From positions 1 through 40,733 of the IMG/VR virus record IMGVR_UViG_3300047546_003137: DNA of 40,733 nt; one strand, 5' to 3'. Made by a program: the position numbers and the translations under genes. Positions 7,190-36,320 of the stretch are shown piece after piece. Under the pieces are notes generated by a model that saw only the letters and a list, made by a program, of their open reading frames with translations, ran no database searches and was not told where the DNA came from. Positions within the stretch are counted from its first letter, which is position 1, and each line of letters opens with the position of its first letter. This stretch comes from a virus.

Positions 7190-7192
7190 AGA

Positions 7193-8012: not shown

Positions 8013-8175
8013 TGGTCCACCGCTTTATAAAATCTGCTTCCATAGCTATCAAATAGCCGTTAGCTGGATCAAACGCCGCAAAACGCAGCAATCTTACTGT
8101 TGTAATCCAGCGCCTAAGATGCCAAGTGCTCAGGCCTTCATTCATCAGGTAGTGGTGGACGTTACAGACGCTCAT
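7999..8175 (-). CDS. 58-aa hypothetical protein
   Basis: ATG at 8175 overlaps the stop of the HNH gene as ATGA and has AGGAAGAG upstream. The product begins MSVCNVHHYLMNEGLSTWHL and contains RRWITTVRLLRFAAFDP. It is basic and helical. It lies in an operon with the endolysin and HNH genes. No known family recognised. Confidence 0.6.
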   Translation of the reverse strand: MSVCNVHHYLMNEGLSTWHLRRWITTVRLLRFAAFDPANGYLIAMEADFIKRWTNARS

Positions 8176-8780
8176 GCTCTCTTCCTAACCATGAGGTAGC
8201 AATCGATCTCAAGCCTCAGCGCCTCTAAGATGCGCGGCGATGGATTAATCTTGTACAAGCGAGCAATCTCCAGCAAGACACTGGGCTCAATGCCCAGTGC
8301 TCGTCGCTCATCGCCCGGCTGATACCGGTGAAGCTTGGCCAGAGGCTCTACGGCGTAGACGCCGTTGATCATGGCCGTCATCTGCCGGTTTGCGCGGGCG
8401 ATTTTTTCGAGCTGAGGGTCGTTGAGTTTAACGATTGATTCTTGCTTATGGCGGTTGCAGGCCGTGCAGAGCGGCACCGCATTGTTTATTGCTTGGTTAG
8501 TAAGTTGATGCCGCAGCACGAGATTGCCCCCGTGAGACTTCGGGATCCAGAAGTGGTCTAGCTCAATGCCGTCGCGATCGTCGTCGCAGAGTGCGCACCG
8601 GCAGTCGTAAAGCCGCATCAGGGTTGGCCACCACTTAGTTTTGTATAGTCGCTCATCAGAGTTGCTGCGGGAATAGTCGCGGCGCTCTATCGTGTAGACG
8701 CTTGGATCGGTTGAGGGAAGCGATTGCGATATAGTTGCGATATTTTCTTGTCGTTTCTGCTGCAAACTTAAGCGCGACAT
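8172..8780 (-). CDS. HNH endonuclease, 202 aa
   Basis: A zinc-bound HNH nuclease domain lies at about residues 58-115. C62xxC65 and C105xxC108 would bind zinc, and the ELDHFWIP stretch (D75-H76) carries the catalytic histidine. Asparagines at 99-100 and H111 follow the usual order. Flanking helices give no known DNA-binding domain. HNH proteins in phages act as homing enzymes or packaging-linked nucleases. This one sits next to the endolysin, not the terminase, so a free-standing homing endonuclease is my preferred reading. The ATG has no visible ribosome binding site and follows an A/T-rich spacer, unlike its neighbours. Confidence 0.88.
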   Translation of the reverse strand: MSRLSLQQKRQENIATISQSLPSTDPSVYTIERRDYSRSNSDERLYKTKWWPTLMRLYDCRCALCDDDRDGIELDHFWIPKSHGGNLVLRHQLTNQAINNAVPLCTACNRHKQESIVKLNDPQLEKIARANRQMTAMINGVYAVEPLAKLHRYQPGDERRALGIEPSVLLEIARLYKINPSPRILEALRLEIDCYLMVRKRA

Positions 8781-8836
8781 AGTTATAAATAGTTAAAATT
8801 ATTAGATTAAAACGCAAAATAAAAACTAAAAACCGA

Positions 8837-9382
8837 TCAACCCGGGGTGAGGAAAAGGCGGCGCTCGGCTTCGCGTCTTCTGACCAGCCCCGGGAGCTCT
8901 TTGCCCTGCGCCTTGGTCCATTTGAGAAACTCGTTGGAGGCGTCAAGAAATTTTCTCTGGTTTACCAACCTGAGCAGAGTTGAGTTTTTCAAGTTGCCAA
9001 CCCCTGCGTTGTATGCAAAACTTACCAGTGCGGCAAACTGATTATCGTTTACCTCAACTTTTAGCAGCTTAGAAACATCTGAGCAAAACCTGTCGAGGTC
9101 TGCAGTTTTTCTTTCATCTGCTTGAGTTTGAGTCCATTTTGTCCCGGGGCCGATGGGCGTTGGCTTGCCGTCCGGGGTCAAATTAAACGTGTCTATGCCA
9201 GTTGATCCCCACCCGATGGTCCAGGGTGCTCCTGATAAATTTTCCCACTCATGTTTTCTTGCGTTGAGTGGTTTTCTCAACTCTATTGCCAGAGGAGATG
9301 CGGGATCGGGATATGCGTCTAGTTTACACCCTTCAAAAGATTTTATGAGCGTTAGACCGTTACCGTTTAATTTTCGCACCAT
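8837..9382 (-). CDS. Endolysin, GH24 lysozyme (muramidase), 181 aa
   Basis: Hydrolyses the peptidoglycan glycan strand for host lysis. The N-terminus has LIKSFEG (Glu17), DAYPD (Asp26) and APWTIGWGST (Thr55), the E-D-T catalytic order of T4/P22-type lysozymes. The spacing between Asp and Thr is about 23 residues longer than in short members, from an inserted loop (residues 28-50). The helical C-terminal part has the typical NDNQFAALVSFAYNAGVGNL and LPGLVRRREAERRLFL motifs. There is no signal or anchor helix, so it needs a holin. The start overlaps the upstream small gene. Confidence 0.93.
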   Translation of the reverse strand: MVRKLNGNGLTLIKSFEGCKLDAYPDPASPLAIELRKPLNARKHEWENLSGAPWTIGWGSTGIDTFNLTPDGKPTPIGPGTKWTQTQADERKTADLDRFCSDVSKLLKVEVNDNQFAALVSFAYNAGVGNLKNSTLLRLVNQRKFLDASNEFLKWTKAQGKELPGLVRRREAERRLFLTPG

Positions 9383-9515
9383 CTTGCACCGCCTTCATAG
9401 CGTCATGCGGCGCACTTTTATCCACCACCATCATTCGGTAAAGCGTGAACATAAAGTAAACCGTGTTAGACGCTTCTAAGTTAAAGATATCAGTTATCCA
9501 GTTTTTCCGCTTCAT
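9360..9515 (-). CDS. 51-aa membrane-like peptide upstream of endolysin
   Basis: This frame starts at ATG 9515 inside the end of the 87-aa gene and ends inside the start of the endolysin, so it overlaps both neighbours. The product begins MKRKNWITDIF and contains a hydrophobic run (NTVYFMFTLYRMMVV) followed by a charged tail. A position directly before the endolysin is where holins often sit. The hydrophobic run is short for a transmembrane segment, so this is only a candidate holin or antiholin. The ribosome binding site is weak. Confidence 0.5.
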   Translation of the reverse strand: MKRKNWITDIFNLEASNTVYFMFTLYRMMVVDKSAPHDAMKAVQDGAKIKR

Positions 9516-9753
9516 TATTTATAGCGCTCTCTATGGCCATCTCGATTAATTTGGCCTCAGCTGCTCTTTTATACTTTGCGCGAACATCGTGGAAGTCTGG
9601 TGCTGCAATGGCTTCAAAGCAGCTTAGCCAACCCGTACCGTCCGGGCGTTTTTTAAGCCTAGCAAGTGGGCATTTAGAGCAAGGATTCTCTCCTAAAAGC
9701 TCACAATCGCCCGTGTCTGCTATTTTTTGAAGTATATCTGTGCCTTTGTCCAC
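9490..9753 (-). CDS. 87-aa protein with four cysteines
   Basis: Starts at GTG 9753, near an AGGCG; no better start is visible. The pattern C17-x7-C25-x2-C28-x16-C45 around NPCSKCPLARLKKRPDGTG suggests a small metal site. The C-terminal half is a charged helix (VRAKYKRAAEAKLIEMAIES). It heads the minus-strand lysis-associated operon, directly at the divergent promoter region. Function unknown. Confidence 0.75.
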   Translation of the reverse strand: MDKGTDILQKIADTGDCELLGENPCSKCPLARLKKRPDGTGWLSCFEAIAAPDFHDVRAKYKRAAEAKLIEMAIESAINNEAEKLDN

Positions 9754-9797
9754 CGCCTAGTCCCAGTATAATTTATTAGAGACCTTAGGAGTATTTT
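9754..9797. promoter_or_regulatory. Divergent promoter region
   Basis: This 44-base gap separates the minus-strand operon from the plus-strand virion genes. On the plus strand it has TATAAT at 9767-9772, then TTAGGAG before the ATG at 9798. On the minus strand TATACT overlaps the same place. Both directions could start within a few bases of each other. Confidence 0.6.
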
Positions 9798-10656: not shown

Positions 10657-12174
10657 ATGCCCGCGTTTGCTTCAAAAAAACAATATCGCATGATGATGGC
10701 CATACTGCACGGTAAGGCTGGTCGAACGTCGCGTGGCGATAAGGGACCACCAAAGTCTATTGCTGAAAAATACTCTGGATCTGACAAAGATCTACCCGAT
10801 GACAAGGGCAAAGCTGGTCATGGTGGCAAATGGGATCACAAGGCCCATAAGCGCCACGCAGAAAAACATAAGAAAAAAGAAAAGAAATTAGAAAAGTCTA
10901 AAGGCGGAGCGGCTGTTGTTGTAGTTAATGATAAAGGGCAGCTTCTTATGGGCCGCCAAGTTAAAGACGATTACAAGTGGTCTTTTCCTGGCGGCCGCGT
11001 AGACGATGGCGAATCTTATAAAGAAGCTGCGATTCGTGAACTTGAAGAAGAAACCGGCGTCAAGGTTGACAAAGATTTGCTAATAGACCTACACGACGAC
11101 GGCAAAGATCGCACCTATTTGGTGAGACTGGGCCACACCCCTATTTTTCATGCAACCCCTGAGCTCGCCGACGTTGGATTCTACGACGTAGAGGATATCG
11201 ATTTCAATAGATTACGAGATTGTTGCGTAGACTCTATGGCGCACTATATGAAATCACGCCTAGTAAAAAATAATAAATCTATAAAAGATCTTCTTAAGAT
11301 AGAAGAATTAGAGCTTTTGGCTAAAAATATAGCTCATCCAGATCAAACTATCAATACGATATATGAATTTAGACATGGTGATGCTTTGCGCCTTGTTGGT
11401 AATGGCGCGTTCAGGATGCTGAGACGCGGCGTTGAAAACATGAGCGTCGACGATATTCGTGATATTCAGTTTGGAAACTATACGCTTCACGTTAGAAAAC
11501 ATGCAAACGATATTTATTCAGGTCGCGTTGACGATGGTTTAAAAACTATTCACCAGTTTGTAAATCGTTCACTTACCGAACTTACAAGTGAACTTATGAG
11601 CGTGTTTGAGTGGTACGACAACGAAAATGATCAAGACTCTAAATTTGAAATTCACGACGATTCAGCGCTTCCTGATGAAACAATATATGATGGAATAAAA
11701 AAACTTGTCAACAATTATCGCTCATACAATATCGCTGATATTTATGACGAGATGGAGTCCATCCGCGAAGAGATTCGTCACGGTAACGCTGTCGATCTAC
11801 AGCAGATCGAAAATCGAGTAATGGCTTTATTTGACAAACTTGAAGATCGTATAGATATCTTCAAAGAAAAACATAATTCGCTAGCTTCTAGATTGGGCGA
11901 CGAAATCGACGACATAGAGAAAAAGCTCTTAGCTCTTCAAGACTCTATTGAAAAAATGTCTAAAAAACCCTCTAAGATTGAAGCATTTTCTGTTGACCCG
12001 GCGAACCCCAAAGAAGTTCTGTCAGAATACTATGCATATCTTTCTAAACCTAGAGTGGTTATTAGCCCCACGGGACACATAACTATAGATTTTGGTTCTG
12101 ACTGGATGTCTAGTGATCGCGAGAACTTTTTAAAAGACATGCGAGCAAAAGTTGTTAAAAAGAGCAAGAAATGA
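10657..12174 (+). CDS. Nudix-domain protein in the virion operon, 505 aa
   Basis: A perfect Nudix box (G-x5-E-x7-REL-x-EE-x-GV) lies at residues 113-135, inside a Nudix fold of about residues 82-190. Such enzymes cleave a nucleoside diphosphate linked to another group. Before it is a basic region (residues 1-81) starting MPAFASKKQYRMMMAILHGK with a lysine/histidine-rich stretch, a start style I associate with phage proteins near the head genes. After it is a long helical region with coiled-coil heptads (about residues 360-440) and a compact C-terminus. The gene lies between two virion-region genes and overlaps the next. It may be a virion-associated enzyme; the substrate cannot be told. Confidence 0.85.
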   Translation: MPAFASKKQYRMMMAILHGKAGRTSRGDKGPPKSIAEKYSGSDKDLPDDKGKAGHGGKWDHKAHKRHAEKHKKKEKKLEKSKGGAAVVVVNDKGQLLMGRQVKDDYKWSFPGGRVDDGESYKEAAIRELEEETGVKVDKDLLIDLHDDGKDRTYLVRLGHTPIFHATPELADVGFYDVEDIDFNRLRDCCVDSMAHYMKSRLVKNNKSIKDLLKIEELELLAKNIAHPDQTINTIYEFRHGDALRLVGNGAFRMLRRGVENMSVDDIRDIQFGNYTLHVRKHANDIYSGRVDDGLKTIHQFVNRSLTELTSELMSVFEWYDNENDQDSKFEIHDDSALPDETIYDGIKKLVNNYRSYNIADIYDEMESIREEIRHGNAVDLQQIENRVMALFDKLEDRIDIFKEKHNSLASRLGDEIDDIEKKLLALQDSIEKMSKKPSKIEAFSVDPANPKEVLSEYYAYLSKPRVVISPTGHITIDFGSDWMSSDRENFLKDMRAKVVKKSKK

Positions 12175-14126: not shown

Positions 14127-16301
14127 ATGGCGATCAGCGTATCATTTAACGGCGCTACGATTTACAAGCCCGGTGCGTACTCAAAAACCACCATCGACCT
14201 ATCTGGCAACGTCCCGCTCGGACCAGCCGGTCTGATTGCAATCTTCGGCGAAGCGGACGCTGGCGCCCCAGGGTCGGCAGAGACCAATATTGCTGATAAC
14301 TTTTTCACGTCAGACAGGCTGATTGAGGCTCGCAACAAATATAGATCTGGTCCTATTGTCGACGCTCTTAATTTCTTGTTCTCGCCCGCATCCGATGGCG
14401 CGATTCCTAGTGGCGCTCAGGTTGTTTGGGTTTATAAAACCAACGCTTCCACGCGCGCATCTTTAGCTCTCGCAGGATCTTATGGCTCAGTAAGAGCTAG
14501 AGAATGGGGGGTTGGCGGAAATCAATCTTCTCTGAAGATCCTAGCTTCTGCGGAAGTTGCCCCCTCTGCAACAGGTTCTGCTCCTGCGGCTTTTGGCGCA
14601 GCGTTGAACGGCGCATCTTTTTCAGTTAGAGCAAACGGCGGCGCTTCTACGGTTGTGACGCTCAGCACAACGGCTACAGATCATGATACGCTAGCAAACC
14701 TAGTGATCGAGTTAAATTCTTTACTGCCAGTCGGCGTTACCGCGTCGGCAGCAGGTAGCGCAGTTAAGCTTCAGATGGCTGCTGCTCCAAGCCAGTACGC
14801 AGAAGGTTGGGGACGCTCACTAGAGCTAATCGATTCCACCCTGGGCGATCTGGCAAAACTAGGACTAGTTGCAAATCTTTATTCCGCCGCTGCGGAGCCA
14901 AACTGCACCATTACGATCTCTCAAAAAAGAGATCTCTTGGTTGAAGAGGACACCGTTGGTGGACACGTTGTACTAGAGATTGGTCGCGACGCTACAGGGG
15001 GCGCAACTACAGCATCTGTAACTGTTAACGCAACCCAAGTAATTCTTACGGACTCCATCGGGTCAAATACCTTTGATAAAGCTGCTTTTATCACAATTAA
15101 ACAGCTAGCTGAGTCTATTTCTTTGTATTCAGGTTGGACAGCCAGCGTCAGCAGCCCTGTTTATAACCAGTTGGGACTTGATGCTCTTGATCATGTGACT
15201 GCCGTTGGAGCATTTAGCTCAACTGGTGAAAAACCAGCTCGTCTAAAAAAAGACGCAATGGAAGTTCAGGATCTTTTTGAACAATCTAACGTTGCTGAAC
15301 TTGTCTCCCCGGTTGCTAAGGGGCTTCCTGCCGCTCTCGCCGAAACACTTCTCGCTGGCGGCGCAAAAGGTGGAACTCTTACGACAGACGTCGTGAATGC
15401 GCTTTCTAAGTTTGAAAAATTTCACGTTAACTCCATCGTTCCTCTTTTTTCAAGAAATGCAACCGCGGACATTACAGACAGCCTGACCGACGCAAGCTCG
15501 ACATACACAATCGACGGAATTCATCAAGCTGTTAAAACGCACATCAGCTTGATGAAAACGACCAAGAAGAAAAGCGAACGACAAGGATATCTGTCTGTTA
15601 AGGACACATACTCTAACTGCAAAGATAAAATCGGCAACATGGCAGATGCCAGACTGCAGATGGTAATTCAGGACGTTCGTCAAACAAACGCTCAGGGCGT
15701 CATCAAATGGTTCCAACCTTGGGCATTGGCCTGTTTGATGGCTGGAGCACGAGGCGGCGCGTCTATCGGTCTCCCGCTTACCTTCAAGTTCCTTAACTGC
15801 TCCGGTATTCGCCAAACGTCTCAGTCGATGAACACCGCTGAGGCTGATATTGTTGTGGATTTCGATCCAGACATGCAGTACGATGACGCAATTCAATCCG
15901 GTGTGACGTTCCTCGAAGCGCCAAGAACAGGCGGGTTCCGTGTGGTCGTTGACAACACCACCTACGGCATCGACGATAATTGGGTATACAATCGCGCTAA
16001 CGTATTGTATGCTGCTGATATTGTTGCGTACAACTTCCGCAACACGATGGAGCTGCGATATGTCGGCATAAAGAATACCCTTAGGGCCGCTGAAGTGCAA
16101 AGCACCGCAGAGTCTGTTTTGACCACATTCTTGGCCCAAGGAGTAACCGTTAGCACTGCGGACGCCCCTAACGGGTTTAAAGGACTGAGCATCAGGATCG
16201 ACGGCAACACAATCTATATCTCTGTGACGATTAAGCTTGTTGAAGGTGTCGACTTCGTGCTGGCCGATATCACGCTGCAGCGCGCTAGTCAGACCGCTTA
16301 A
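14127..16301 (+). CDS. Tail sheath protein, 724 aa
   Basis: Forms the contractile outer sheath. The N-terminus (FNGATIYKPGAYSKTTID, then GLIAIFGEADAGAPG) and the C-terminus (GLSIRIDGNTIYISVTIKL, VEGVDFVLADITLQRA) match phage sheath proteins. Near residues 120-360 there is an extra region with strand-rich repeats (TASVTVNATQVILT), presumably a surface domain. AGGAAGGATC precedes the ATG. At 724 aa it is larger than a P2-like sheath (about 400 aa) and near T4 gp18 (about 660 aa). A strong terminator-like hairpin follows. Confidence 0.92.
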   Translation: MAISVSFNGATIYKPGAYSKTTIDLSGNVPLGPAGLIAIFGEADAGAPGSAETNIADNFFTSDRLIEARNKYRSGPIVDALNFLFSPASDGAIPSGAQVVWVYKTNASTRASLALAGSYGSVRAREWGVGGNQSSLKILASAEVAPSATGSAPAAFGAALNGASFSVRANGGASTVVTLSTTATDHDTLANLVIELNSLLPVGVTASAAGSAVKLQMAAAPSQYAEGWGRSLELIDSTLGDLAKLGLVANLYSAAAEPNCTITISQKRDLLVEEDTVGGHVVLEIGRDATGGATTASVTVNATQVILTDSIGSNTFDKAAFITIKQLAESISLYSGWTASVSSPVYNQLGLDALDHVTAVGAFSSTGEKPARLKKDAMEVQDLFEQSNVAELVSPVAKGLPAALAETLLAGGAKGGTLTTDVVNALSKFEKFHVNSIVPLFSRNATADITDSLTDASSTYTIDGIHQAVKTHISLMKTTKKKSERQGYLSVKDTYSNCKDKIGNMADARLQMVIQDVRQTNAQGVIKWFQPWALACLMAGARGGASIGLPLTFKFLNCSGIRQTSQSMNTAEADIVVDFDPDMQYDDAIQSGVTFLEAPRTGGFRVVVDNTTYGIDDNWVYNRANVLYAADIVAYNFRNTMELRYVGIKNTLRAAEVQSTAESVLTTFLAQGVTVSTADAPNGFKGLSIRIDGNTIYISVTIKLVEGVDFVLADITLQRASQTA

Positions 16302-20276: not shown

Positions 20277-23200
20277 ATGGCTGACAACAACGATTCCACC
20301 ATGAATAAAAAGCCAAATTCTTTAGACCGTATCGGCACTGAAGAAGGCAATCGACCATCAAAATCCAAGATGGATGAGTACGCGTTATTTGAGCAACGCT
20401 CGCGATTCAAAACACAAGAGATACGACATTTAGAGCAGCAGCTGCGCGATAAACAAGCTCAGTATGACCGCGTGATGGCTGCAGTTGGTCGCGTTACATC
20501 TCAGCAACAAGATCCTACTGAGGGCTTATATAGAGCCCTTGGAATGACGGCCAATCAAGCCCGTGCCACTCTTAGTTCAAAAACCGTAGAACAGCAATAC
20601 GGCGTAATCGATGATTTGGTGATTAAATATGCCACTAAGTGGGCCGATCAGCAGCAGGTTGTGCGTCGACAGCTTCAAGAAAAACAAGCCGATCAGGCGG
20701 CTATTGCCGCCCGAATGTTTCAACAAAATGTTATAAGTCGCGTCTCTCATCCACGGTCGGGCATTAAAGCTGAAATACTAGCCAACCCAGAGGCGATGCA
20801 GCTAGCGCAAGAATATGCATCATCTTTGTCGCCAGAAGCTATTCAAAAATCTCTTGCCCGCCTTCAAAGATCTAGAAAAAAATACGGACTTGAAACAGCA
20901 GAGGCAGCGGGTCACATACAAGAACCGGGCGGAGCAGAAAAATATAAACAAATAAATACGCGCTACGAAGAACAACTTTACAAAGAGCATGTTTTAGAAG
21001 AATCTCGCCGCATTTCTGATAAGAAAATTAAAGACCACAAAAAACTTGCGGCTATTACACAAAGAACAATGGAAGATATCGCCGAAAGACGTGGCGAATC
21101 TTTTATCAAATCCGGCGTTAGCAGCGGTCAATTTGGCTCATTAAAAGACATCGAGAACTCCTTAAAATCAGCAGAAGAGCAATTCAAACAAGCCGGAAAA
21201 ACCTTTATTTCTGTAATGGGGCAAACCGGCGATGTTTCTGATAAAGCCGCAGAAGCTTTAAAACAAGCAAAAGATGAATTAGACGACTGGAGAATGATAT
21301 CAAGAGAAGCAGGCGGCGGTAGGCGCGGCGGCGGAAGATTTGGCGGCGCAAACAGAATCGCTTCTTTTGGAGATCTTGCTGGCAGAGGGGTCGATTTAGC
21401 GGGATACTTAGCGGTTGGTCTTCAGTCCGAGCAGATGGGTATGCGCATCGGCATGGCTGGCGCAATGAATCAAAGAAATGCAGATATATTCGCCGCAACC
21501 CAGGGCAACATGGCTGCACTGCGTCGTTTAACTGAAAATCAATTTGAAACAGCTGTGAATTTTTCTGGCGCGTATAGGACAAGAGCAAATACTGCGGGCG
21601 GACTTGGTAGTTTAATCGATATTGGAACCGGTGCAGCTGGGGCGGTGGCCACTGCGGGCGGCGCGTTTCCTTGGAGTCTTACAGGCGGCAACATTGCATC
21701 GAATTTACTGTCCGGCGCCAGAAGTGGAGCGAGAGTTTTATCTGGCGTAACTGGCGCAGAAACTCAATTACAATTTTTTCAACAGTTCAATCAATTAAAA
21801 GACGTAATCAACGACATACCTGATGCTTCTAAGCAAGCGTTTTTTGATTATAGGCAAAACGCATTGATGTCCATGCGCGGTGCCGGGCAAAGAACTTCTG
21901 CAATGTATGACGAAGCAGTATCAACGGCAACAATGATGCAGATGGCTGCAATGGGGGTGGCGCCAACTGAAACTAATCGTTTGTTTGGCGTTGGAATAAA
22001 TGCCATTGGCGCAAGTTTTGTTCGCGATCCATCTGCTGCTCGTCAAATGGTTGCGCGAGGAGCAGAGCTTCAAGCTGGCGGATATATGTCTGCCGAAGAT
22101 TATTTACAGCGCGTTGGTCAAGCTGCAGCTCTAGGCGGCGGTCAAAAAGACATTGAAGAAATTTTGGCTCGAGCGGTCACGAGAGGTGTGGATGACGCTA
22201 GATCTTTAAATAATTTGTTTAATGTCATCGGCTCTTTGGCTCGCGGCGGGACTAGTCCAGGCACGCCCTCTGTGGGGGCGGCAGCGAGTGCCATGTCATC
22301 CATGATGGACATGCTCAAAGATTTGCCAATAGACGAAACACTAAAGCAAACTCTAGCTGCATCAGAGATAGAAAAAGCAAATCAGCGCACGTCATTTTCC
22401 AATGTAGATATACCTAGCATGGTATACCTTCAAGGTATTCAAGAGCGTTTTCCAGGCATTAGCACGACCGGGCAGGCAAAACTAGCCAACGTTCCTCTTT
22501 TAGAACAGATTTCTAAACTTAAATTAGTTTCTGATTTAAAACCGGGGGAAGATGTGCCTCTTGGAAGAATCGCTGCGCTTGGTGGAACTAGAGGCGCCTT
22601 CCTAGAAGGTTTTAAGTTTCGTGGAGTTGGCGATTCTTTTTTTGATGATTTAGTTCTAAAAGCACTTGCAAGCAATGTACCAGAAATATCTGACATCTCT
22701 GGTAGAGATGCTGCAACTTTAAAGAAGTATTTGCGAACAGGCGATGAAAATCTCCTGTATAAAGAATTATCTAAAGAGGGTAAGGAGAGAATTGATGTAG
22801 GGCGAGTCATTGCTGATCGCGCATTAATATCAGCTGGATATCGAAAAGATCTACCGTCCGTGCCTCTTCCTGGCCTAACAGGCGAAGCAGCAGCTACGCA
22901 GGCTACATTCGGTATTCAAGCCGGCGGATTAGCTAAACAAGTACTAGCTGGCCAAAGCTTTTACGAACAATTAGGCGAACAAGCTAGATTGGCTGGCGGC
23001 GGCGGACCGTTGCAACCGCCTTATGCCGGCGCAATGCAATCACCGATGTCGTACGTTTCTACTATGATGGGCATGCAGCTAGAAGAATACTCGCCAGAAA
23101 AGGCAGGCAAGGAAGCTGCTCAGGCCGCAGAAAAAATGACCCTAGACTCTTCTGAGTTTGATAAAAGCGTAACTAACTTTAGCGCAGCGGTTGATAAATT

Positions 23201-23348
23201 AGTTAAGGCAGTACAACCATTAGGTACGAATTTAAGTTATAGCATAGATTACGGTTACAGCAATATGGGTCCTCTTGCAAATCCAGAAACCTACGGTGCA
23301 TATGTACAACAGCACAACCAGATTAGAAGAAATTTAAATGGCAGATAA
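20277..23348 (+). CDS. Tape measure protein, 1023 aa
   Basis: Starts right after the stop of the chaperone long form. The N-terminus is charged coiled-coil (EQRSRFKTQEIRHLEQQLRD), the middle has Gly/Ala-rich hydrophobic stretches (about residues 440-480, GGLGSLIDIGTGAAGAVATA) and the rest is helical. Order, length and composition are those of a tape measure, which sets tail length. At about 0.15 nm per residue the tail would be roughly 150 nm. No lytic domain is visible. Confidence 0.9.
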   Translation: MADNNDSTMNKKPNSLDRIGTEEGNRPSKSKMDEYALFEQRSRFKTQEIRHLEQQLRDKQAQYDRVMAAVGRVTSQQQDPTEGLYRALGMTANQARATLSSKTVEQQYGVIDDLVIKYATKWADQQQVVRRQLQEKQADQAAIAARMFQQNVISRVSHPRSGIKAEILANPEAMQLAQEYASSLSPEAIQKSLARLQRSRKKYGLETAEAAGHIQEPGGAEKYKQINTRYEEQLYKEHVLEESRRISDKKIKDHKKLAAITQRTMEDIAERRGESFIKSGVSSGQFGSLKDIENSLKSAEEQFKQAGKTFISVMGQTGDVSDKAAEALKQAKDELDDWRMISREAGGGRRGGGRFGGANRIASFGDLAGRGVDLAGYLAVGLQSEQMGMRIGMAGAMNQRNADIFAATQGNMAALRRLTENQFETAVNFSGAYRTRANTAGGLGSLIDIGTGAAGAVATAGGAFPWSLTGGNIASNLLSGARSGARVLSGVTGAETQLQFFQQFNQLKDVINDIPDASKQAFFDYRQNALMSMRGAGQRTSAMYDEAVSTATMMQMAAMGVAPTETNRLFGVGINAIGASFVRDPSAARQMVARGAELQAGGYMSAEDYLQRVGQAAALGGGQKDIEEILARAVTRGVDDARSLNNLFNVIGSLARGGTSPGTPSVGAAASAMSSMMDMLKDLPIDETLKQTLAASEIEKANQRTSFSNVDIPSMVYLQGIQERFPGISTTGQAKLANVPLLEQISKLKLVSDLKPGEDVPLGRIAALGGTRGAFLEGFKFRGVGDSFFDDLVLKALASNVPEISDISGRDAATLKKYLRTGDENLLYKELSKEGKERIDVGRVIADRALISAGYRKDLPSVPLPGLTGEAAATQATFGIQAGGLAKQVLAGQSFYEQLGEQARLAGGGGPLQPPYAGAMQSPMSYVSTMMGMQLEEYSPEKAGKEAAQAAEKMTLDSSEFDKSVTNFSAAVDKLVKAVQPLGTNLSYSIDYGYSNMGPLANPETYGAYVQQHNQIRRNLNGR

Positions 23349-23360: not shown

Positions 23361-24953
23361 ATGTCAACAATAGCGAACCCAACAGCAGCAATAATTGTTT
23401 ATAGCTATCGAGATCGCGGTGGCAGTACGCCTATTAGCTCTTCTTTGACAGAGCAAATTACTATAACAAAATCAATAATATCAATAGATACAATCAAGCA
23501 TAAATCTAGGCCTGCTGGCTCATTTGATATAAAGCTAGCGCCAACAAAAAACTGGACCGCAATAATATCTCCAGGTAGCTGGGTTGAAATTCACATGTCT
23601 TCGCGCATAATTGGTCAAGACGACCTGAAGCAGTGCGGCGAGGACACACTCAAAATGATTGGAACGATTGATTCAATCAGGATGAACGTTTCGGTCGACC
23701 CGACCACCGGTGCACGCAAAACAGTTTACTCTCTTCAGGGAAGAGATTGGGGATCTGTTTTCGAATCTTTCTTGTATGTTGACACCGCCCTAACAAACGC
23801 TCAAGATAGCGCGCTAGTAAATGCGCTTAATTTTTTATCAACAGTCGACGTTGGCGCAAAAGAACTCGGCGTGGTTGGAATTTACTCCCCTAAGGAGATG
23901 GTTGAAAAAATCATAAATCTCTGGGGGAGAAATATGGCGGTATTAGCTAAAAATATATTTAAATATTCGCAACAGTCGAAGTACTCCATACCGATGGGGT
24001 TAGCCTTAAAGCTTTCTTCAAAAAGTCCCTACGCGGCAGACAATATCAATGTAATTTCTGGTAAGCTGATTAGTAAAGACGTATATGTGCCCGTTAAAGA
24101 GTCTCTAGGCGTACTTAATCCGTTAATGCTTTTAGGGCCTCACGCTGTTTGGCAGCTTTTGATGGCTCACTCAAACAACATACTGAACGAATTGGTTGCA
24201 GAACTTAGATGGCAGGGTCCTTTTCCGGATTTTGCGCTATACCACAGGATCAAACCGTTTCAAGTAAAATCAAACAAACCCGCGTATTTTGCCTCAAACT
24301 TTTTCAACATAAAACAAAACAAAATACCAACGTACGACATAATGGGGATTGAAGCGGGAGATAACACTCAAGATATCGTAAATTTTATTGAAATATTGCC
24401 AGATATGTCTCTTGCTTCTCTGCCGGCTAGTGTTTCTAACGGCATCATAGCCGCGTCTAAACCTGATAGTTCCATTATTGACCCAGCGTCTCTTGCGCGA
24501 CACGGATTAAAGCCACTTACATATAGTAGCGTTTTTGCGCCAAGTGCTGGCGGTTATTTAAACTGGCTCGGTGTAAAAGATTGGTTGCCGATATTGCGCG
24601 ATTGGTACTTCGATTGTCATAAAATGCTAAACGGCACAGTTGTTATATTAGGCCAGGAGAAGTATATCGGCGTCGGCGAAAACATTGTTCTAGATTCCTC
24701 AGTTTTTGGCAATGCAAACTTTGTTAATGCCGATAAAACTAAGTTTGTGGCACACGTTGAGTCTGTTAGTCACAGTTTTGCATATGAACCTCAAAGAGGC
24801 AGAACGTTTGTTACTAGGATAAATTTCGTGAGAGGCGTGTTTGCAGACAGCAGTGCCTCTAAGTTGGCAAACCCAAATGCTTTCGGCATAGAAACCGATA
24901 GTTCTGCCCTACCCGATTCCAAAAAAGATATAGACAACGTTTATTTAGAGTAG
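23361..24953 (+). CDS. Baseplate hub protein (gpD/gp27-like), 530 aa
   Basis: Follows the tape measure. The N-terminus shows beta strands with SIDTIKHKSRPAGSFDIKLA, WTAIISPGSWVEIHMSS and IGTIDSIRM, a pattern of the hub proteins of contractile tails. The C-terminal part has HVESVSHSFAYEPQRGRTFV, also typical of hub proteins (GRTFVTRINFVRG). It probably forms the trimer that seats the spike. The ribosome binding site is weak. The assignment is from pattern and gene order. Confidence 0.75.
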   Translation: MSTIANPTAAIIVYSYRDRGGSTPISSSLTEQITITKSIISIDTIKHKSRPAGSFDIKLAPTKNWTAIISPGSWVEIHMSSRIIGQDDLKQCGEDTLKMIGTIDSIRMNVSVDPTTGARKTVYSLQGRDWGSVFESFLYVDTALTNAQDSALVNALNFLSTVDVGAKELGVVGIYSPKEMVEKIINLWGRNMAVLAKNIFKYSQQSKYSIPMGLALKLSSKSPYAADNINVISGKLISKDVYVPVKESLGVLNPLMLLGPHAVWQLLMAHSNNILNELVAELRWQGPFPDFALYHRIKPFQVKSNKPAYFASNFFNIKQNKIPTYDIMGIEAGDNTQDIVNFIEILPDMSLASLPASVSNGIIAASKPDSSIIDPASLARHGLKPLTYSSVFAPSAGGYLNWLGVKDWLPILRDWYFDCHKMLNGTVVILGQEKYIGVGENIVLDSSVFGNANFVNADKTKFVAHVESVSHSFAYEPQRGRTFVTRINFVRGVFADSSASKLANPNAFGIETDSSALPDSKKDIDNVYLE

Positions 24954-28628: not shown

Positions 28629-31600
28629 ATGGCCATAAGTCTTCAAAGTTACAATGAAATACTTGGCAAACTAGTACGAAAAATTATTGCAGATACGGCC
28701 GTTAATGACATAAACACAGGTTCTGTATTGCTAACCCTCCTGGAAGCTGTCGCTGCTCAAGATTTTGAAAATAACACAGCAATATTAAGTGTTTTAGAGA
28801 CTCTTAACGTTGATGCTTTAAAGAATATTGATCTTGACACCAGGGCGGCAGATTACGGGCTAGTTCGTCGCACGTCAGTTAGAGCAACTGGATCTATCAA
28901 GATTTACGACAGCAGTATTTCTAAGCGAGCAACAGCGCTTTACAGCCTAAAACCGGCTCCTATAGCCGGAGCAACAAAGATTTACGTAAACAATGCTTCT
29001 GGCTGGGATTTTAATTCTGGTGAGCTTTATATTGGGCGCGGAACGCTTCAGTTCGAGGGTCCTATTGGGTATGGTTCGCCGGACGGGGGAGTGACGCCAG
29101 GTATTGAGTTTAATGGTAGTTTTTACACAATACACCTAACCTCCACGTTAAAAAAAGATCACCTAATCTCTGATTCTGTAATTGATAGACAAGGCAAAGA
29201 AGATCGCCTTATACCCGCTGGCACTATTGTTAAAATCCCTTTAAACAACTTAACACCAGAAATCAGATATTTAACTCTTCGAGACAGCGTTCTACCCGCT
29301 GGAGAAGACCACGTTGATGGCGTGACTATTGTTGCCGACGAGGCAGGCACTCAAGCAAATAGCGGCATAAATACTATAGTTCAGTTTGATTCTCAGCCTT
29401 TCGAATTTGCAGCAGTAACAAACACGTCACCGGCTGTAGGTGGTCGAGACGTAGAGTCAGATGAAGAACTAAGAGAGAGAATCAAGAATTACGCTTCCAC
29501 CTTAGCTCGCGGTACTAGAGCCGCTATATTGGCTTCTGTTGTAGGAATTTCGGATTCAACGGATGGAAAGCAAGTTTCTTCTGCAGTTATAACAGAGCCA
29601 GCCAGCATTGGTGATCCATCTATTGCCTACATAGACGACGGCACAGGATTTCAACCATCGTTTGCTGGTCAGTCCGTTGATACTATTTTAGCTTCTGCAA
29701 CAGGCGATGAAGAGTTTTTACAACTATCTAATTTTCCATTACCACGCCCTCAGGTGATAAATCAAACATCTGGTCCGGTTGAATTAACAAATGGCATGTT
29801 CTTAAGGGTTAGGGTCGACTCGGTAGAAGAACAGGTTGTTTTTACGACTAAGTATTTTTTAAATATCGCAGCAGCCACTCTTCCTGAAATTGCCGCTGCA
29901 ATTAATTCCCAGGCCACAGACGGCGGTTTTGGTTTTAGGTGTAGATTGTCGGACAATTCAAGTCGACTTTTGCTATATCCAGTTTCGCATGACGCCGAGT
30001 ATATTCAAGTATCGCCTATTAGGCAAAACGACGATCCAACGCTTTATGCCAACACAATTCTAAAATTTCCCACAAATAAATATTCATATATCACGCTTTA
30101 TAAAAATAATACACTTTTAACGGAAAAGCAATTATCCGCCTCCTTAGAGTCAAAGCCGGCACCGTGGGGCATATCAACTGCAGGCGAGCTAACGATTCAA
30201 GTAGATGGGACGCCGCCACAAACCAATTCATTTAATCTTTCTGACTTTACTGCGTCGGTTTGGTCTGCCATTACTCTTCAAGAGTGGGCGAATGTTTTCA
30301 ATTCCAAATTCGCAGGAATAACCGCATCTGTAACGTCTAGCAATAGACTTCAAATAGTGTCCAACAGAACAGGCTCTTTGTCGTCCTTAAAAATTCTTAG
30401 CGGCGACTACATAAGTCAGATATTTGAAGATTCTTCGCTTGAGTCTAAAGGATCTGACTCGCAATTTGCATTAAATCGACAAACCGGCAATCTGCAATTA
30501 AAAATTAAGCTCTCTTTAGGAGACACGATTACTGCCGGCGCAGCAGATGCTAAAGGCAATATTCAATCTAACCCAACCAGCAGCGGATCTTACAACCTGT
30601 CTACGGACGCAGAAGGCCGCCCCGCAGAGCTTGTTGTAGTTACTGATGGAAACAACGTTTTTCCAAGAACAGATGTCAAACCAGTTGTTGGCGCTACTAT
30701 TACAGTTCCCGACCTGAGCTCTACGGCTCCAAACGTAATGCGTATTCTGTGCAGCAGCGTTGGTGTTTTTCAACAAGCTCAAGTTGACGATTATATCTAT
30801 ATTGCCCCCAAGACGTCATCGTGGCTTTCTGCTCAAAATACTGGTATTTTTAAAATTATTAAAAAGGGCAGCCATTTAGATAGCGCGACATCGTATATTG
30901 ACGTTGCAAATCCAAACGTTGTGGCAGAAGGCCCGTTCACTATTACAACAGATACAGACATTCAAGTTTTTTCTTCGGATGTGTATCCGCAGATATGGCG
31001 TGGATCTTATTTGCCAGCCCCTGCCACAGCATCTCTTAAAGACATTGCAACTTCGCTGAGCAATGATATTGTTAATGTCAAAAGCTCTATATTTAAAACA
31101 ACATCTTTAAAGACGACAAGCTCTACAGAAAATGGCGGGGCAATATGCACGCCTGTCTCTATAGGAAACGCGTCTTTGGCATTCCCGACGGCGAGAAGTA
31201 ACGAATTTGGCAATCAGTCACATATTGCGTCGTCTGTTAATGAGAAAGATTTATTTTCATTTTTTAAACGTACCCAACCCGTATCGCAAAATGTTTGGTT
31301 AGATCGCTTTAGCTATTCAAGTCAGAAAACCAACTTAAGCGACAACTCTAACCCTAATGTAGGCGAATACAGTGAAGTACTGACCTCCAGTCTATTTAAC
31401 GAATCGAATATCTCGTATGACGACATCGTTAAAGTGACATCTGGTTCCAATAAATCTCAGTTCAGGTCGATTAAAAATTTACCATCAGCAGATCAACTTG
31501 GCACTCAAGTATCGCTTCCGCGTACAGAGTTTTCTTATTCATCCGGTGATCAAATCGACGTGATGGAAAGCTTATCGATTGCTGCAGATGATTCGATTGT

Positions 31601-34600
31601 ATTTATTATAGACGGCGATGCTGTAAATAGCACTGTTAACGTCAATATGTGGCGAACCGGTAAGGTGAATAGCTCATATGCTCCATCCGGAGTTGCATTT
31701 TCTGCTGACGACGCAGACAACGAATCTGGCGTAAATTTTGGCACGCTTCAAGTTTGGTCTAAAGATACTGGAACTGATTTTAGCGATTATGCCGTATGGA
31801 TGAGGAGTCATAACTGGTACAGAACCGGCGGCGCGAATGCAACCAACGCAGCAACGATGATAATTCGTGCAAAAGAATACGGTCCGACCGGCGAAAAATA
31901 TAGATTCTCTATTGAATATCCATCGACACCAGATCAGACAGCGAGTGTAGAGCACGATGTAACGCCTGATTACTGTTTAACAACGTATCATTTTGCATCT
32001 GGATCTCAGCGTAGCACTGGAATTGTTGGTGGGACAACTTTTAAAGTAACTAGTGTTGGCGCCCCAAGCGACTACGTGTGGAGATATGCTTTTCAACAAC
32101 CTAGCGTAGATTTTTCGTCTGTTTTGACAGGAGACATCCTGTCGATATCGAGCAGTGGGGTTAGTGCGGCAAATAGCGGTACTTTTTATATTAACTCTAT
32201 CGATCTTGCAAATAGAAGCATCGACATATACAATCCCAACGGCGCAGAAACATCCGTCGGATCCCCAGAAGTCACTAATATTACTGCAACAGCGGACGTA
32301 CCGGGAACTGCGATGGAGCAAACGATTACGACTACCGCGCCTGGCGTTGCCGCAGGGCAGGTCTCAACGCAAGATTATTTTGTGTTATACGACGACGTTG
32401 GCAAAGTTGTATTTTGGTATGACGTCGGCAACACCGGCGCTCCTGCGCCCACTGTCTCTGGAGCATATAGATACGTTAAGATATCAACAATAGTTAACAG
32501 TGTGCCAGCGGTTCAAACAATAGCAACCACTGCACAAGGCGCAGCCGCAGGCCTGGTTGATAACGGCAGATATTTTATCCTTTATGACGACGTGGGTGCG
32601 GTTGTGTTTTGGTATGATATTAGCGGCTCAACACCAGAACCTTCAGTTCCTTTTAGCGCCCGGAAAGTAAAGATTTCAACCGTTGCAGCTAGCGATACCG
32701 CTGTTAATATCGCGGTTAAAACTGCTACCGCAATTGATAATGATTTAAAGTTTAGTGCGATTTCAGCAGGTAACACGATTGCTGTTACTAATTCATTTTT
32801 TGGCCCAAGTACCACGGGCTTAAATGGGCCTAATTTGGCATTTGTGTTTACGTCTGTTGTGGCCGGTGTGATTGGCGATACTGCTGACAGTGTGGCAACT
32901 AAAACCGCCACCGTAATTGATGGCGATGTAAAATTTAGTGCTACAACTTCTACAAACGTAATTACAGTTGTCAATTCTTTTGTTGGCCCTGTGACTGCAG
33001 GATCGGCTGGACTCGGTCTTTCTTTTGTATTTGCCACTACTGTTTCTGGCGTTACAGCCGCATCTTTGGGTGGAAAATACTTTAAGATATATGATCAATC
33101 TGGCAGCGTGGCCGTATGGTATAACACTGGTTTTAGTTCATTGCCGCCGCACGGATGCAACCGTGCAATACAGGTTTCCATACCGCCTGGCGCATCCGCT
33201 AGTATAGTTGCAGCAACAACAGCTTCTTTTGTAGGCGCAGATGCTGCATTTTCGGCGAGCGCAGTTAATGCAGTTGCCACTATTACAGACGCGGTTAACG
33301 GCTTGCGAAGCAGCGCCGCAGATGGCACAGCGCCATATGAGACGGGATTCGCAATTGCGTCGACAAAAGGCGTCGATGACGGTGTTGAAACAATTACGTC
33401 AACGCCTACGTGCTCAATTTTCCCTTTAACTGCAAACTCTGTAAGCGAAATATGCGAGACAATAAACACAAGTCAAACACTAACCGCTGTTCCCGTGGGT
33501 AACTCAAGTTTGACAATAGTTAAAGCAACTCGCGATGAAGTTTATGCACACGATGGCACAGATTCTAGCGCGTTGGGATATGGTCATGATCCCGACCCGA
33601 CGACAAATTTAAACACATATGTTGGAATGTTTGATGGCGAATCATTTGTTCAAACATTTTCAAATTCAAATCCACACTTCTTGCTTAAAAAAGAGCTGTT
33701 ACTGCCGGGGGTTGTACCAAGCATTTATTCAATGAATTCATGCCCAAATCCAGGTTCCGCAGAAACTGGCGAGTATTTTAAGCTGATTCCAAAGACCATT
33801 AATAACATTAAGCACCATTTCACTCAGAAAGCTTTAAGTCAGCTACCCATCGTCGCCGATGTCGATATAGCCAAGAACTTTAGAAGAATACAAATAAAAT
33901 CAAAAAAATTAGGCACAACCGGAGCTATTGAAGTTGTCGGCGGGCGCGCTAATATCGGTGAATTTTCTATTTTTGACGACGCAGCTGTTGAGCAAGGAAT
34001 AGATGGCACTCAATATCTGCAAATCAAAACGTCCGCGTACCCCGCAACCCTTAATAGTGGTGATTTAGTAGAGATCTATAACAATTTACCAGCAAAAAGA
34101 AAATCGCGACTAACTAATACTAGCACTATTAGCGTTGAGTCCGCTGGGGCCGGTGAATTTGATTACAAGTTCAACCCCAGAAAGACAAGAATAACCCCAT
34201 TTACTAATTGGACAATCACCGACGTATCTAGTAGTTATGGAAAAATTAGTGGAATAGTTTGGCGATGGACGCACACTAGTTCAGGCGGTAAGGTTTCTGT
34301 TTCTGCAAAGACAAATGGTTCTATTCCCGTTGCCCCTGGGGCGTATAAAAGCGATGGCAATATTGCAGACAACTCGCATGTCTATGAATACGAGCAGGGT
34401 GCCGTAAACAAAAAAATGCAATTTGCAATGGCTGTGTCAAGCACACCCTCGCAAGGCGATTACTTTTATTTTGCCGCTGTAGACGGATCTACGTATGCCG
34501 TATGGCTTAATGTGGACAATGACGACACCCCACCTGCAAGTAGCCAATTTAGCTCAGCAAATTATAAAATTGAAGTCAATATAACAAGTTCTGATTCTTT

Positions 34601-36320
34601 AAACTCAATAGCTGCAAAAGTGTACAACGAACTTAACACGCCATCAATTCCAGCCAATGAGGCGGGAAAAGATGCTTTTATGTCCGATTTTTCTTCCTCT
34701 AATGTGCTTGGGACAAGTTTGGACGACGTTAGAGAAGGCGACTTGCTGAATGTCTCCGGGACTCTTGATCCTAGTTGGAGTGCTGGAAACGTGTCCTCTT
34801 CTCCCGGCGAATCCAAGATATGCGGTTTTCCAGTTATAAAAGTAGATGCAGAAAACAAATACGTCGATGTAATCAACCCCGTTGGGCAGCAAATGCTTAC
34901 AGAGAATTTTTCAGGGGAAGATGGAACAATATCGATAAGTCCAACACCGTCTATTCGTTTTCGCTTAAGGCATGCAGCTAACTCCACAAAATACAGAATC
35001 GAAAGCCTTGGCGCATTAGATTTATTTAGGATTGTCTGGACAGACGGTCAAAAACCATACTTTGCAGACTGTGGTACTGCGGTTGACGATTTTGTTCTCT
35101 TGAGCGGCGATTCATTTAATTCAGCCAATTTGGGCAGATTCAGGATATTAGCTGTTGATAATGAATCTTTAACAATTCAACACGCAAAAGGCGTTGAAGA
35201 ACTACACACATATAAAAAGTTTTCCTCATCGGAAACCTTAACAACATGGACAGCTGGATCTACTATTGTTACGGGGGCTATTAATGCCTTTAGTAACGTA
35301 AACCCCGGGGACTGGATTAAGAAAAAAGAGGACACGGAAGATAAATTTGCTCAAGTTTACTCTGTGTCCGTTAGCAAAGATCAAGTTGTATTAGGTCAAA
35401 CCTATAGAGGCACTACGGGTCTTGCATACGGTGTCGTAACTAATTTTGAAAACGATGTAAATTTTGGCTCTTTGCTTTTAAATGCTGATGATTTGCAGAT
35501 ATTTGAAGGAGACTCAGTTGTCATTGGCGACTCTTTGGTTATTGATTCGTACACCAATCCAAACTGGTTTAACCAAGTAAATTCAGGCGTTCGCGCTGTA
35601 ACAGGCTGGGGAACGAAGACCCTTAGCGATACACCTTATTTATCGCCATACTTAAGAGTGTACAACCCAAATGGCATAGCTCAAGAAGACAGGCAGATAG
35701 GTCTGAAAAGCGACGGGTTTTATGTGTTAGAGTCAGAAAATAATAAATACAAATCCGTTCGCAAAATAGAAAATGCAGCAATTAATCAGTTAAATTTTGC
35801 GCAAAGAGTTCTTTACGCGACACCTGCGGACAGATCCTACAAGATGTCCAATTCTTATGAAACTAAAGTGCGATCTTTAGGAAAACTGGGCTTTCCGCTA
35901 GGGACGGTTACTGGTATAGATGGGTATCTATACTACACAGGTCTTATGCGCACGGTTCAAAGAACAATAGATGGATACGAACCCGACTCATCGACGTACC
36001 CAGGGCAGCGCGCTGTCGGTTCCGCGATCGAAGTTCTTCCTCCACTTATTAAGCAAGTTTCGCTAGCACTGCGTATCGTTACAAAAGACGGTGTCAACCT
36101 TACAGATATAACTAATGAGATTAAATCTGCTATTATAAACTACATTAGTACGCTAGGGGTTGGCGAGGATGTCATCCTTTCAGAAATAATTGCAAGAGTG
36201 AAAAACATTATTGGAATTGAAGCTGTTACGATTACCACACCCAATCCATCAGAAGAACGCATACCTGTTGCAGACGATGAAAAAGCACTAATTACGCCCG
36301 AGTTAATTAACTTATCTTAA
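28629..36320 (+). CDS. Giant baseplate J-like protein (gp6/gpJ-type), 2563 aa
   Basis: The first ~330 residues carry the J-type pattern (YNEILGKLVRKIIADT, TGSVLLTLLEAVAAQ, GGRDVESDEELRERI). The last ~130 residues carry its C-terminal part (SLALRIVTKDGVNLTDITNE, GEDVILSEIIARVKNIIGIE). J proteins form the outer baseplate wedge ring; P2 gpJ has about 300 aa and T4 gp6 about 660 aa. Between them lie nearly 2000 extra residues of strand-rich, Ser/Thr/Ala-rich sequence with repeated modules (see 32310-33400). The insertion probably projects from the baseplate. It follows the gp25-like gene, as J does in P2. Confidence 0.85.
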   Translation: MAISLQSYNEILGKLVRKIIADTAVNDINTGSVLLTLLEAVAAQDFENNTAILSVLETLNVDALKNIDLDTRAADYGLVRRTSVRATGSIKIYDSSISKRATALYSLKPAPIAGATKIYVNNASGWDFNSGELYIGRGTLQFEGPIGYGSPDGGVTPGIEFNGSFYTIHLTSTLKKDHLISDSVIDRQGKEDRLIPAGTIVKIPLNNLTPEIRYLTLRDSVLPAGEDHVDGVTIVADEAGTQANSGINTIVQFDSQPFEFAAVTNTSPAVGGRDVESDEELRERIKNYASTLARGTRAAILASVVGISDSTDGKQVSSAVITEPASIGDPSIAYIDDGTGFQPSFAGQSVDTILASATGDEEFLQLSNFPLPRPQVINQTSGPVELTNGMFLRVRVDSVEEQVVFTTKYFLNIAAATLPEIAAAINSQATDGGFGFRCRLSDNSSRLLLYPVSHDAEYIQVSPIRQNDDPTLYANTILKFPTNKYSYITLYKNNTLLTEKQLSASLESKPAPWGISTAGELTIQVDGTPPQTNSFNLSDFTASVWSAITLQEWANVFNSKFAGITASVTSSNRLQIVSNRTGSLSSLKILSGDYISQIFEDSSLESKGSDSQFALNRQTGNLQLKIKLSLGDTITAGAADAKGNIQSNPTSSGSYNLSTDAEGRPAELVVVTDGNNVFPRTDVKPVVGATITVPDLSSTAPNVMRILCSSVGVFQQAQVDDYIYIAPKTSSWLSAQNTGIFKIIKKGSHLDSATSYIDVANPNVVAEGPFTITTDTDIQVFSSDVYPQIWRGSYLPAPATASLKDIATSLSNDIVNVKSSIFKTTSLKTTSSTENGGAICTPVSIGNASLAFPTARSNEFGNQSHIASSVNEKDLFSFFKRTQPVSQNVWLDRFSYSSQKTNLSDNSNPNVGEYSEVLTSSLFNESNISYDDIVKVTSGSNKSQFRSIKNLPSADQLGTQVSLPRTEFSYSSGDQIDVMESLSIAADDSIVFIIDGDAVNSTVNVNMWRTGKVNSSYAPSGVAFSADDADNESGVNFGTLQVWSKDTGTDFSDYAVWMRSHNWYRTGGANATNAATMIIRAKEYGPTGEKYRFSIEYPSTPDQTASVEHDVTPDYCLTTYHFASGSQRSTGIVGGTTFKVTSVGAPSDYVWRYAFQQPSVDFSSVLTGDILSISSSGVSAANSGTFYINSIDLANRSIDIYNPNGAETSVGSPEVTNITATADVPGTAMEQTITTTAPGVAAGQVSTQDYFVLYDDVGKVVFWYDVGNTGAPAPTVSGAYRYVKISTIVNSVPAVQTIATTAQGAAAGLVDNGRYFILYDDVGAVVFWYDISGSTPEPSVPFSARKVKISTVAASDTAVNIAVKTATAIDNDLKFSAISAGNTIAVTNSFFGPSTTGLNGPNLAFVFTSVVAGVIGDTADSVATKTATVIDGDVKFSATTSTNVITVVNSFVGPVTAGSAGLGLSFVFATTVSGVTAASLGGKYFKIYDQSGSVAVWYNTGFSSLPPHGCNRAIQVSIPPGASASIVAATTASFVGADAAFSASAVNAVATITDAVNGLRSSAADGTAPYETGFAIASTKGVDDGVETITSTPTCSIFPLTANSVSEICETINTSQTLTAVPVGNSSLTIVKATRDEVYAHDGTDSSALGYGHDPDPTTNLNTYVGMFDGESFVQTFSNSNPHFLLKKELLLPGVVPSIYSMNSCPNPGSAETGEYFKLIPKTINNIKHHFTQKALSQLPIVADVDIAKNFRRIQIKSKKLGTTGAIEVVGGRANIGEFSIFDDAAVEQGIDGTQYLQIKTSAYPATLNSGDLVEIYNNLPAKRKSRLTNTSTISVESAGAGEFDYKFNPRKTRITPFTNWTITDVSSSYGKISGIVWRWTHTSSGGKVSVSAKTNGSIPVAPGAYKSDGNIADNSHVYEYEQGAVNKKMQFAMAVSSTPSQGDYFYFAAVDGSTYAVWLNVDNDDTPPASSQFSSANYKIEVNITSSDSLNSIAAKVYNELNTPSIPANEAGKDAFMSDFSSSNVLGTSLDDVREGDLLNVSGTLDPSWSAGNVSSSPGESKICGFPVIKVDAENKYVDVINPVGQQMLTENFSGEDGTISISPTPSIRFRLRHAANSTKYRIESLGALDLFRIVWTDGQKPYFADCGTAVDDFVLLSGDSFNSANLGRFRILAVDNESLTIQHAKGVEELHTYKKFSSSETLTTWTAGSTIVTGAINAFSNVNPGDWIKKKEDTEDKFAQVYSVSVSKDQVVLGQTYRGTTGLAYGVVTNFENDVNFGSLLLNADDLQIFEGDSVVIGDSLVIDSYTNPNWFNQVNSGVRAVTGWGTKTLSDTPYLSPYLRVYNPNGIAQEDRQIGLKSDGFYVLESENNKYKSVRKIENAAINQLNFAQRVLYATPADRSYKMSNSYETKVRSLGKLGFPLGTVTGIDGYLYYTGLMRTVQRTIDGYEPDSSTYPGQRAVGSAIEVLPPLIKQVSLALRIVTKDGVNLTDITNEIKSAIINYISTLGVGEDVILSEIIARVKNIIGIEAVTITTPNPSEERIPVADDEKALITPELINLS
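32310..33400 (+). repeat. Tandem domain repeats inside the J-like protein
   Basis: Two first-half units, YFVLYDDVGKVVFWYD (about residues 1230-1290) and YFILYDDVGAVVFWYD (about 1295-1355), are followed by two second-half units. These are IAVKTATAIDNDLKFSA (about 1360-1415) and VATKTATVIDGDVKFSA (about 1420-1475). A diverged full unit starts YFKIYDQSGSVAVWYN (about 1480-1595). A further copy lies at 34420-34640 (YFYFAAVDGSTYAVWLN). The unit is a roughly 100-residue beta-rich domain duplicated in a mosaic way. Confidence 0.8.
34420..34640 (+). repeat. Distant copy of the YF..VWY domain
   Basis: YFYFAAVDGSTYAVWLNVDN followed by YKIEVNITSSDSLNSIAAKV has the same order as the repeats at 32310-33400: YF strand, VWY strand, V-x-I strand, then an IA/VA helix. 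It is separated from them by over 300 residues. Confidence 0.6.

Follow-up and report, generated by a model that had tools for sequence, protein, structure and literature searches.

What does a phage baseplate do with a J protein of 2563 residues, most of which lie between the two halves of the domain that builds the ring? The question is raised by a 40.7-kb virus contig (IMG/VR record IMGVR_UViG_3300047546_003137), the whole of which was analyzed and is referred to here as the window. Its J gene encodes a gp6/gp47-type baseplate wedge protein that carries roughly 2,100 residues between the halves of its ring-forming domain (Table 1).

Two J-type ends and their gene neighborhood

The Pfam family Baseplate_J (PF04865) is matched twice in the same chain. 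Residues 188-295 correspond to columns 30-132 of the profile and residues 2439-2522 to columns 179-254, together covering most of its 255 columns; the whole-protein match (E 4.7e-15) is above the cut-off, and the C-terminal half scores 24.3 bits against a cut-off of 21.1. Between the two matches lie ~46 profile columns but some 2,100 residues of J; the borders of this insertion fall within 295-343 and 2439-2472 and can be placed only to within some tens of residues. Fold comparison agrees at both ends. Residues 53-294 match J of phiCD508 (Z 14.6, rmsd 3.6 over 135 residues) and gp31 of A-1(L) (Z 15.6, rmsd 12.0 over 172), and residues 2472-2563 match the J proteins of phi812, Mu, phiCD508, A-1(L) and the pyocin protein PA0618 (Z 9.3-11.0), with the C-terminal domain of phi812 J at Z 11.0 and rmsd 1.8 over 87 residues.

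AlphaFold2 models of residues 1-1200 (mean pLDDT 74, pTM 0.37) and 1370-2563 (mean pLDDT 73, pTM 0.55) agree with this split assignment. The N-terminal core (1-342) comprises helices at the putative position of the core bundle (8-75), a wing domain (~92-192) and the first part of domain III, which is the domain order of XM1 gp16 (PMC10457771); the helices are modeled at 8-22, 33-44, 46-63 and 67-75, where pLDDT is ~48-77. The first-pass annotation, made from the letters of the window, had called both J-type ends clear, and the paired Baseplate_J halves and fold matches bear this out, as does the structure prediction of segments that it had suggested, in which small beta domains lie between two ends with the J fold. 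Its statement that the insertion is three to seven times the size of a normal J is fair against solved J-type chains, which among the matches listed are mostly 290-660 aa long. The largest of these are PlPVC1 (887 aa), phiKZ (963 aa) and the Anabaena contractile injection system (1227 aa), the last being about half as long as the window J.

Table 1. Features of the J protein and of the tail genes around it in the window
Feature	Positions	Strand	Basis and remarks
Tail sheath	14127-16301	+	phrog_279; 724 aa
1023-aa gene, tape-measure position	20277-23348	+	position
Upstream baseplate gene, 535 aa	27009..28616	+	phrog_975 baseplate protein, 2.3e-14; beside J in relatives too
Giant J-type baseplate wedge protein, 2563 aa, 273.5 kDa	28629..36320	+	single ATG ORF, no internal stop
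J N-terminal core, residues 1-342	28629..29654	+	Pfam Baseplate_J, fold match; boundary after residue 294 approximate
Insertion, residues ~343-2438, ~2,096 aa, 224 kDa	29655..35942	+	gap between Baseplate_J matches; conserved in relatives
Flagellin-D2-like domain, residues 373-486	29745..30086	+	Vibrio flagellin matched by VIA-align at Z 9.8 (rmsd 2.6 over 93)
XM1 sheath insertion domain / FliD D3-type domain, residues 500-611	30126..30461	+	VIA-align; model pLDDT 85-93
Variable slot 1, residues 1215-1580	32271..33368	+	~3 equivalents of the 'YF-LYD' module in the window; spans 116-570 aa among main-clade relatives
Conserved scaffold segment, residues 1581-1879	33369..34265	+	282-301 aa in all main-clade relatives except one
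Variable slot 2, residues 1880-2100	34266..34928	+	module present/absent; main-clade relatives have 74-79, 209-229 or 285-286 aa
J C-terminal domain, residues 2472-2563	36042..36317	+	fold match; residues 2439-2522 match Pfam columns 179-254
gpI/gp7-like wedge partner, 820 aa	36332..38794	+	directly 3' of J; phrog_1160 baseplate, weak phrog_6 at N-terminus
Fiber-like protein, N-terminal 616 aa	38884..40731	+	ORF open at contig end

The gene lies in a head-tail module that extends from 9.8 kb onward, where the long non-overlapped ORFs are all on the plus strand. Behind the sheath come the tube-region genes, the 1023-aa gene, several baseplate genes, J, the gpI-like gene and the start of the fiber-like gene, whose product is 1456-1703 aa long in complete relatives. 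Adjacency of J and the gpI-like gene is conserved in relatives as well, so that the gpI/gp7 partner of the J family is in its place.

Several other features of the window deserve mention in their own right. The sheath matches the phrog_279 profile (489) end to end but exceeds it by ~235 residues, and it is 82-86% identical in the contigs of relatives; an HMM search of the sheath for the insertion domains of J found none. A 530-aa gene at 23361-24953 resembles the family 'tail protein with lysin activity' (phrog_1015, 1.6e-8) and is a candidate hub lysin. In the head-gene region, a 505-aa protein (10657-12174) contains a NUDIX domain at residues 84-181 (PF00293, 3.8e-19), a stretch that is also matched by the PHROG portal family phrog_15528. 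The left quarter of the window (1-9797) is without long plus-strand genes, has a higher GC content and is of opposite AT skew; it resembles a block of small genes on the minus strand, such as lies left of the tail genes in Myxococcus phage Mx1.

Relatives and the sites at which J varies

Among 50,697 phage records searched with J by tblastn, only Mx1 (WNM70274.1, OR576727.2) has the insertion (E 3e-77), within a J of 1925 aa that is annotated merely as 'baseplate protein J-like protein'. Metagenomic virus contigs of up to 175 kb yielded 65 relative loci, with 36 complete main-clade J frames of 2250-2922 aa and two distant relatives of 1881 aa (L072) and 2338 aa (L080); in one relative (L076) there is a break near the C-terminal end of J. 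An assembly error or gene fusion on the contig is ruled out by the frame being intact at similar length in the 36 complete relatives. One scan of bacterial genomes gave no relative, and another gave two MAG contigs, assigned to Cyclobacteriaceae (L081) and Mariprofundaceae (L082). Both could be phage sequence that binning placed in the MAG, and we therefore claim no host from them.

The family has already been deposited by name: the BFVD/UniProt entry A0A6J5KUV1, 'Baseplate protein J-like' from an uncultured Caudovirales, is 48% identical over approximately the first 1200 residues. Literature searches for an outsized J in phages, or for baseplates with ice-binding domains, yielded nothing specific, nor was a description of the insertion found. 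That insertion is real and conserved, an extreme version of a known part and not a new kind of system.

Comparison of segment lengths over 33 main-clade relatives places the length variation in a few slots, chiefly slot 1, with slot 2 on the other side of a conserved scaffold segment (Table 1). Residues 1-1214 are near-constant in length (1199-1235 aa in complete proteins), and identity to relatives peaks at 1701-1750, within the scaffold segment. The window J is ~125 residues longer than its closest relatives (2436-2438 aa), and the excess falls in slot 1, which has 366 aa compared with 241-246 aa in those relatives. The exception to the constant scaffold is the largest J (L035, 2922 aa), with ~390 extra residues in the segment equivalent to window residues 1581-1879.

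What occupies these sites differs among relatives. In one J (L067), slot 1 contains an ice-binding-like domain at residues 1372-1558 (PF11999, E 2e-36). In another (L012), it holds ~300 residues of propeller-like repeats (~1330-1640) that are likely to form a propeller, to judge from their sequence and a weak match to the KIB1-4 propeller just below the cut-off. A Kelch propeller is recognized by Pfam in the distant relative L080, elsewhere in J than slot 1, and Mx1 carries one in the gene at the gpI position. Taken together, these contents show that wedge proteins in this lineage acquire optional domains, of types often used for binding, at a few sites, and it is plausible that surface contact is made by a few variable slots with a putative binding role.

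Composition and rate of change of the insertion

The first-pass annotation had also spoken of mosaic domain repeats, and the insertion is indeed a mosaic of small beta-rich domains, which we estimate to number fifteen to twenty, with both tandem copies and recurrent domains. The tandem copies are those of a ~102-aa 'YF-LYD' module, repeated at 1232-1311, 1297-1400, 1408-1461 and 1467-1566, with a faint, distant copy inside slot 2 at 1932-2028. BLAST detects two partial tandem duplications within the 1231-1566 stretch, and because their copies are ~50% identical we consider them old. Copies of another small beta domain lie near 690-780, 1130-1210, 2095-2195 and 2290-2370. Domains are also held in common with neighboring proteins: that of residues 373-486 recurs in the gpI-like protein at ~124-213 (HMM iE 1.9e-12), and that of 2200-2295 in the fiber-like protein (HMM iE 2.6e-10).

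The best-defined of these domains resemble structures on the outside of tails and flagella. Residues 500-611 match residues 96-216 of the XM1 sheath (28% identity; Z 11.8 and rmsd 2.3 over 104 in VIA-align) and several FliD proteins (D2-D3, Z 7-9.6); the XM1 sheath insertion domain has itself been likened to FliD D3 (PMC10457771). The slot-1 module has a weak match to residues 118-172 of the Milano sheath (E 0.0058), which lie inside the external extension domain of that protein (91-203; PMC10811340). Since XM1- and Milano-sheath-type domains decorate the exterior of tails (PMC10457771, PMC10811340), the domain types support an exposed position, and by this analogy the insertion would be placed on the outside of the baseplate. 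Barrels resembling EF-Tu domain II are matched by ~1771-1850 plus 2330-2419 (Z 8-9); such small barrels are common, and we give these matches no interpretation. Among the Pfam and fold matches listed, no carbohydrate-binding or enzymatic domain was recognized in the window's own insertion.

The size of the insertion and its position inside a core domain would also be compatible with its being released or processed, with J acting as a polyprotein or as the carrier of an intein-like parasitic element. We regard this as highly improbable: Pfam scans of segments from 35 and 33 relatives revealed no intein or protease domain, and the insertion persists throughout the lineage, Mx1 included, and is built of domains of the virion-surface type.

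A probably exposed insertion with variable slots raises the prospect that it is the main receptor-binding, host-range organ of the phage. Its surface-type domains, the varying length and content of slot 1, and the ice-binding-like or propeller domains of relatives speak in favor of such a role. A test proposed at the outset was whether the insertion changes rapidly while the ends do not. Identity to the closest relatives is 75-80% in the ends and 58-60% in the insertion; the latter changes only moderately faster, within the range of other tail and baseplate genes, and the expected pattern did not appear. One informative pair (L004/L006) gave dN/dS values of 0.066-0.076 for the scaffold of the insertion and 0.081 for J overall, the highest value being that of slot 1 (0.18); the insertion is under purifying selection, with dN/dS ~0.07 in this one pair.

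Genes further downstream behave differently. Between L004 and L006, J has a dN of 0.016 compared with 0.14 and 0.94 for downstream genes, and between L008 and L010, J is identical while downstream genes have a dN of 0.21 and 0.63 and a portion of the long fiber gene has 0.15. The diverging fiber genes of both pairs sit 7-10 kb downstream of J, and the most divergent gene of L004 matches the tail-fiber family phrog_4492. With J constant while fiber genes diverge in close pairs, the host-range signal lies in the fibers and not in J as a whole. Between close relatives J does not change faster than structural genes, and the whole insertion as a hypervariable receptor protein is rejected on these grounds and that of purifying selection; as the main host-range organ in any broader sense, the insertion is an improbable candidate. 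The outward receptor- or surface-binding appendage envisaged by the first-pass annotation survives in part: the J ends, the gpI-like gene and the surface-type domains favor a large structure borne on the ring, but a general host-range role for the whole insertion is not supported, given the low dN/dS and the divergence of the fibers instead.

The fiber region has features of its own. Short genes 3' of the long fiber gene show extreme divergence between close relatives (L004:25876-26970, dN 0.94; L008:26603-27238, dN 0.63), and the 1703-aa fiber gene at L008:19545-24653 contains seven stretches of the avian adenovirus fiber N-terminal family (PF06536, E 6e-36).

A proposed baseplate skirt and its known counterparts

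What we propose for the function of the insertion draws on analogy and on domain types. We suggest that it forms a conserved peripheral skirt or cage on the baseplate, with exchangeable contact modules, that acts after the fibers, a proposal to which we give about an even chance of being correct. Scaffold lengths that are near constant while the slots vary, and the domains common to the gpI-like and fiber-like genes, lead us to it. Contractile tails have two J and one gpI per wedge and six wedges, as established on T4 and XM1 (PMC10457771). If the copy number of these other phages applies, J would be present in 12 copies as (J)2-gpI wedges, and its insertion of 224 kDa, taken 12 times, would surround the iris with a further ~2.7 MDa. 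The insertions would form a fixed structure, whose placement relative to the ring is presumed, given the pTM of the segment models (0.37 and 0.55). Primary host recognition would be left to the separate downstream fiber genes; the skirt would then contact the envelope at close range, hold the fibers, or both, and would couple contact to iris opening and sheath contraction, with the exchangeable slot modules tuning what it touches.

The chief rival to this proposal is a purely structural role, in which one chain fuses what in T4 are separate peripheral proteins, giving a rigid skirt and fiber socket without cell contact of its own. Conserved scaffold lengths, purifying selection and the domains common to the adjacent gpI-like and fiber-like proteins would fit this, as would the T-even-like virions of Mx1 (PMC6070905); by itself, however, it leaves the gain of adhesin-like and propeller domains in relatives unexplained, and we consider it possible but on the whole unlikely. 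A more far-reaching form of the contact skirt is doubtful in our view: a 12-fold, ~2.7-MDa cage or skirt whose slots swap adhesin, propeller or ice-binding-like domains might constitute a second receptor sensor, one able to license contraction independently of the fibers, as a phage counterpart of the AlgoCIS cage.

Among solved structures, enlarged J proteins are known up to ~1200 residues, mostly from injection systems, in which they form cages around the spike. This phage lineage inserts ~1,500-2,500 residues, which are conserved while single slots gain adhesin-like domains. If the contact skirt is real, a contractile tail can use its own trigger ring as a contact surface. Mx1 can be propagated on Myxococcus xanthus in the laboratory, and the proposal is therefore directly testable.

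Mx1 is also the nearest named system. As in the window, its J has both J-type ends and a large insertion, much of which is homologous to the window's, and is followed by a gene at the gpI position, but it is shorter (1925 aa), ~27% identical and without several of the window's modules, and its Kelch propeller is in the next gene. Mx1 virions have been described by electron microscopy as T-even-like, a giant skirt not being reported there (PMC6070905). A0A6J5KUV1 belongs to the same family as the window J and carries its annotation by name only. The XM1 sheath insertion domain shares fold and 28% identity with residues 500-611, and the Milano sheath extension domain has a weak sequence match to the slot-1 module; both are on the sheath and not on J.

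Enlarged J-type proteins provide the functional parallels. Gp31 of cyanophage A-1(L) (PDB 8KEA) is among the best fold matches to the N-terminal part of the window J, with the highest Z. An insertion domain of gp31 holds the long tail fiber (PMC10966104), but this insertion is ~100 aa long and located at the wing (81-180). Cis11 of the Anabaena tCIS (PDB 7B5H; PMC8894136) is a J-type protein with three extra domains, one in contact with the tail-fiber-like Cis13 and one making the cage; it differs in its size (~1227 aa) and in belonging to a thylakoid-anchored cell machine. Alg11 of AlgoCIS (PDB 7AEB), like the window protein, is a J-type wedge protein with a massive insertion, and the very large J insertion characteristic of spike-cage J proteins is present in the window at ~2,096 aa. 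Alg11 domain IV (278-643, 366 aa) is the spike cage, with putative carbohydrate-binding modules (PMC8894135), and opening of the cage after fiber binding has been proposed as the trigger of iris expansion and firing (PMC13314943). Alg11 differs in having an insertion of 366 aa, in pairing as an Alg11-Alg12 heterodimer and in coming from an eCIS, not a phage. Its insertion also seems to occupy another site in the J fold: the ranges of eCIS J chains in the fold matches point to a site other than the window's, and no Alg11-cage-type match is among the matches listed. Because of this apparent difference, we draw the analogy as a functional one and claim no homology to Alg11; on our best reading, its spike cage is the known structure that comes nearest in function to the insertion of the window J.
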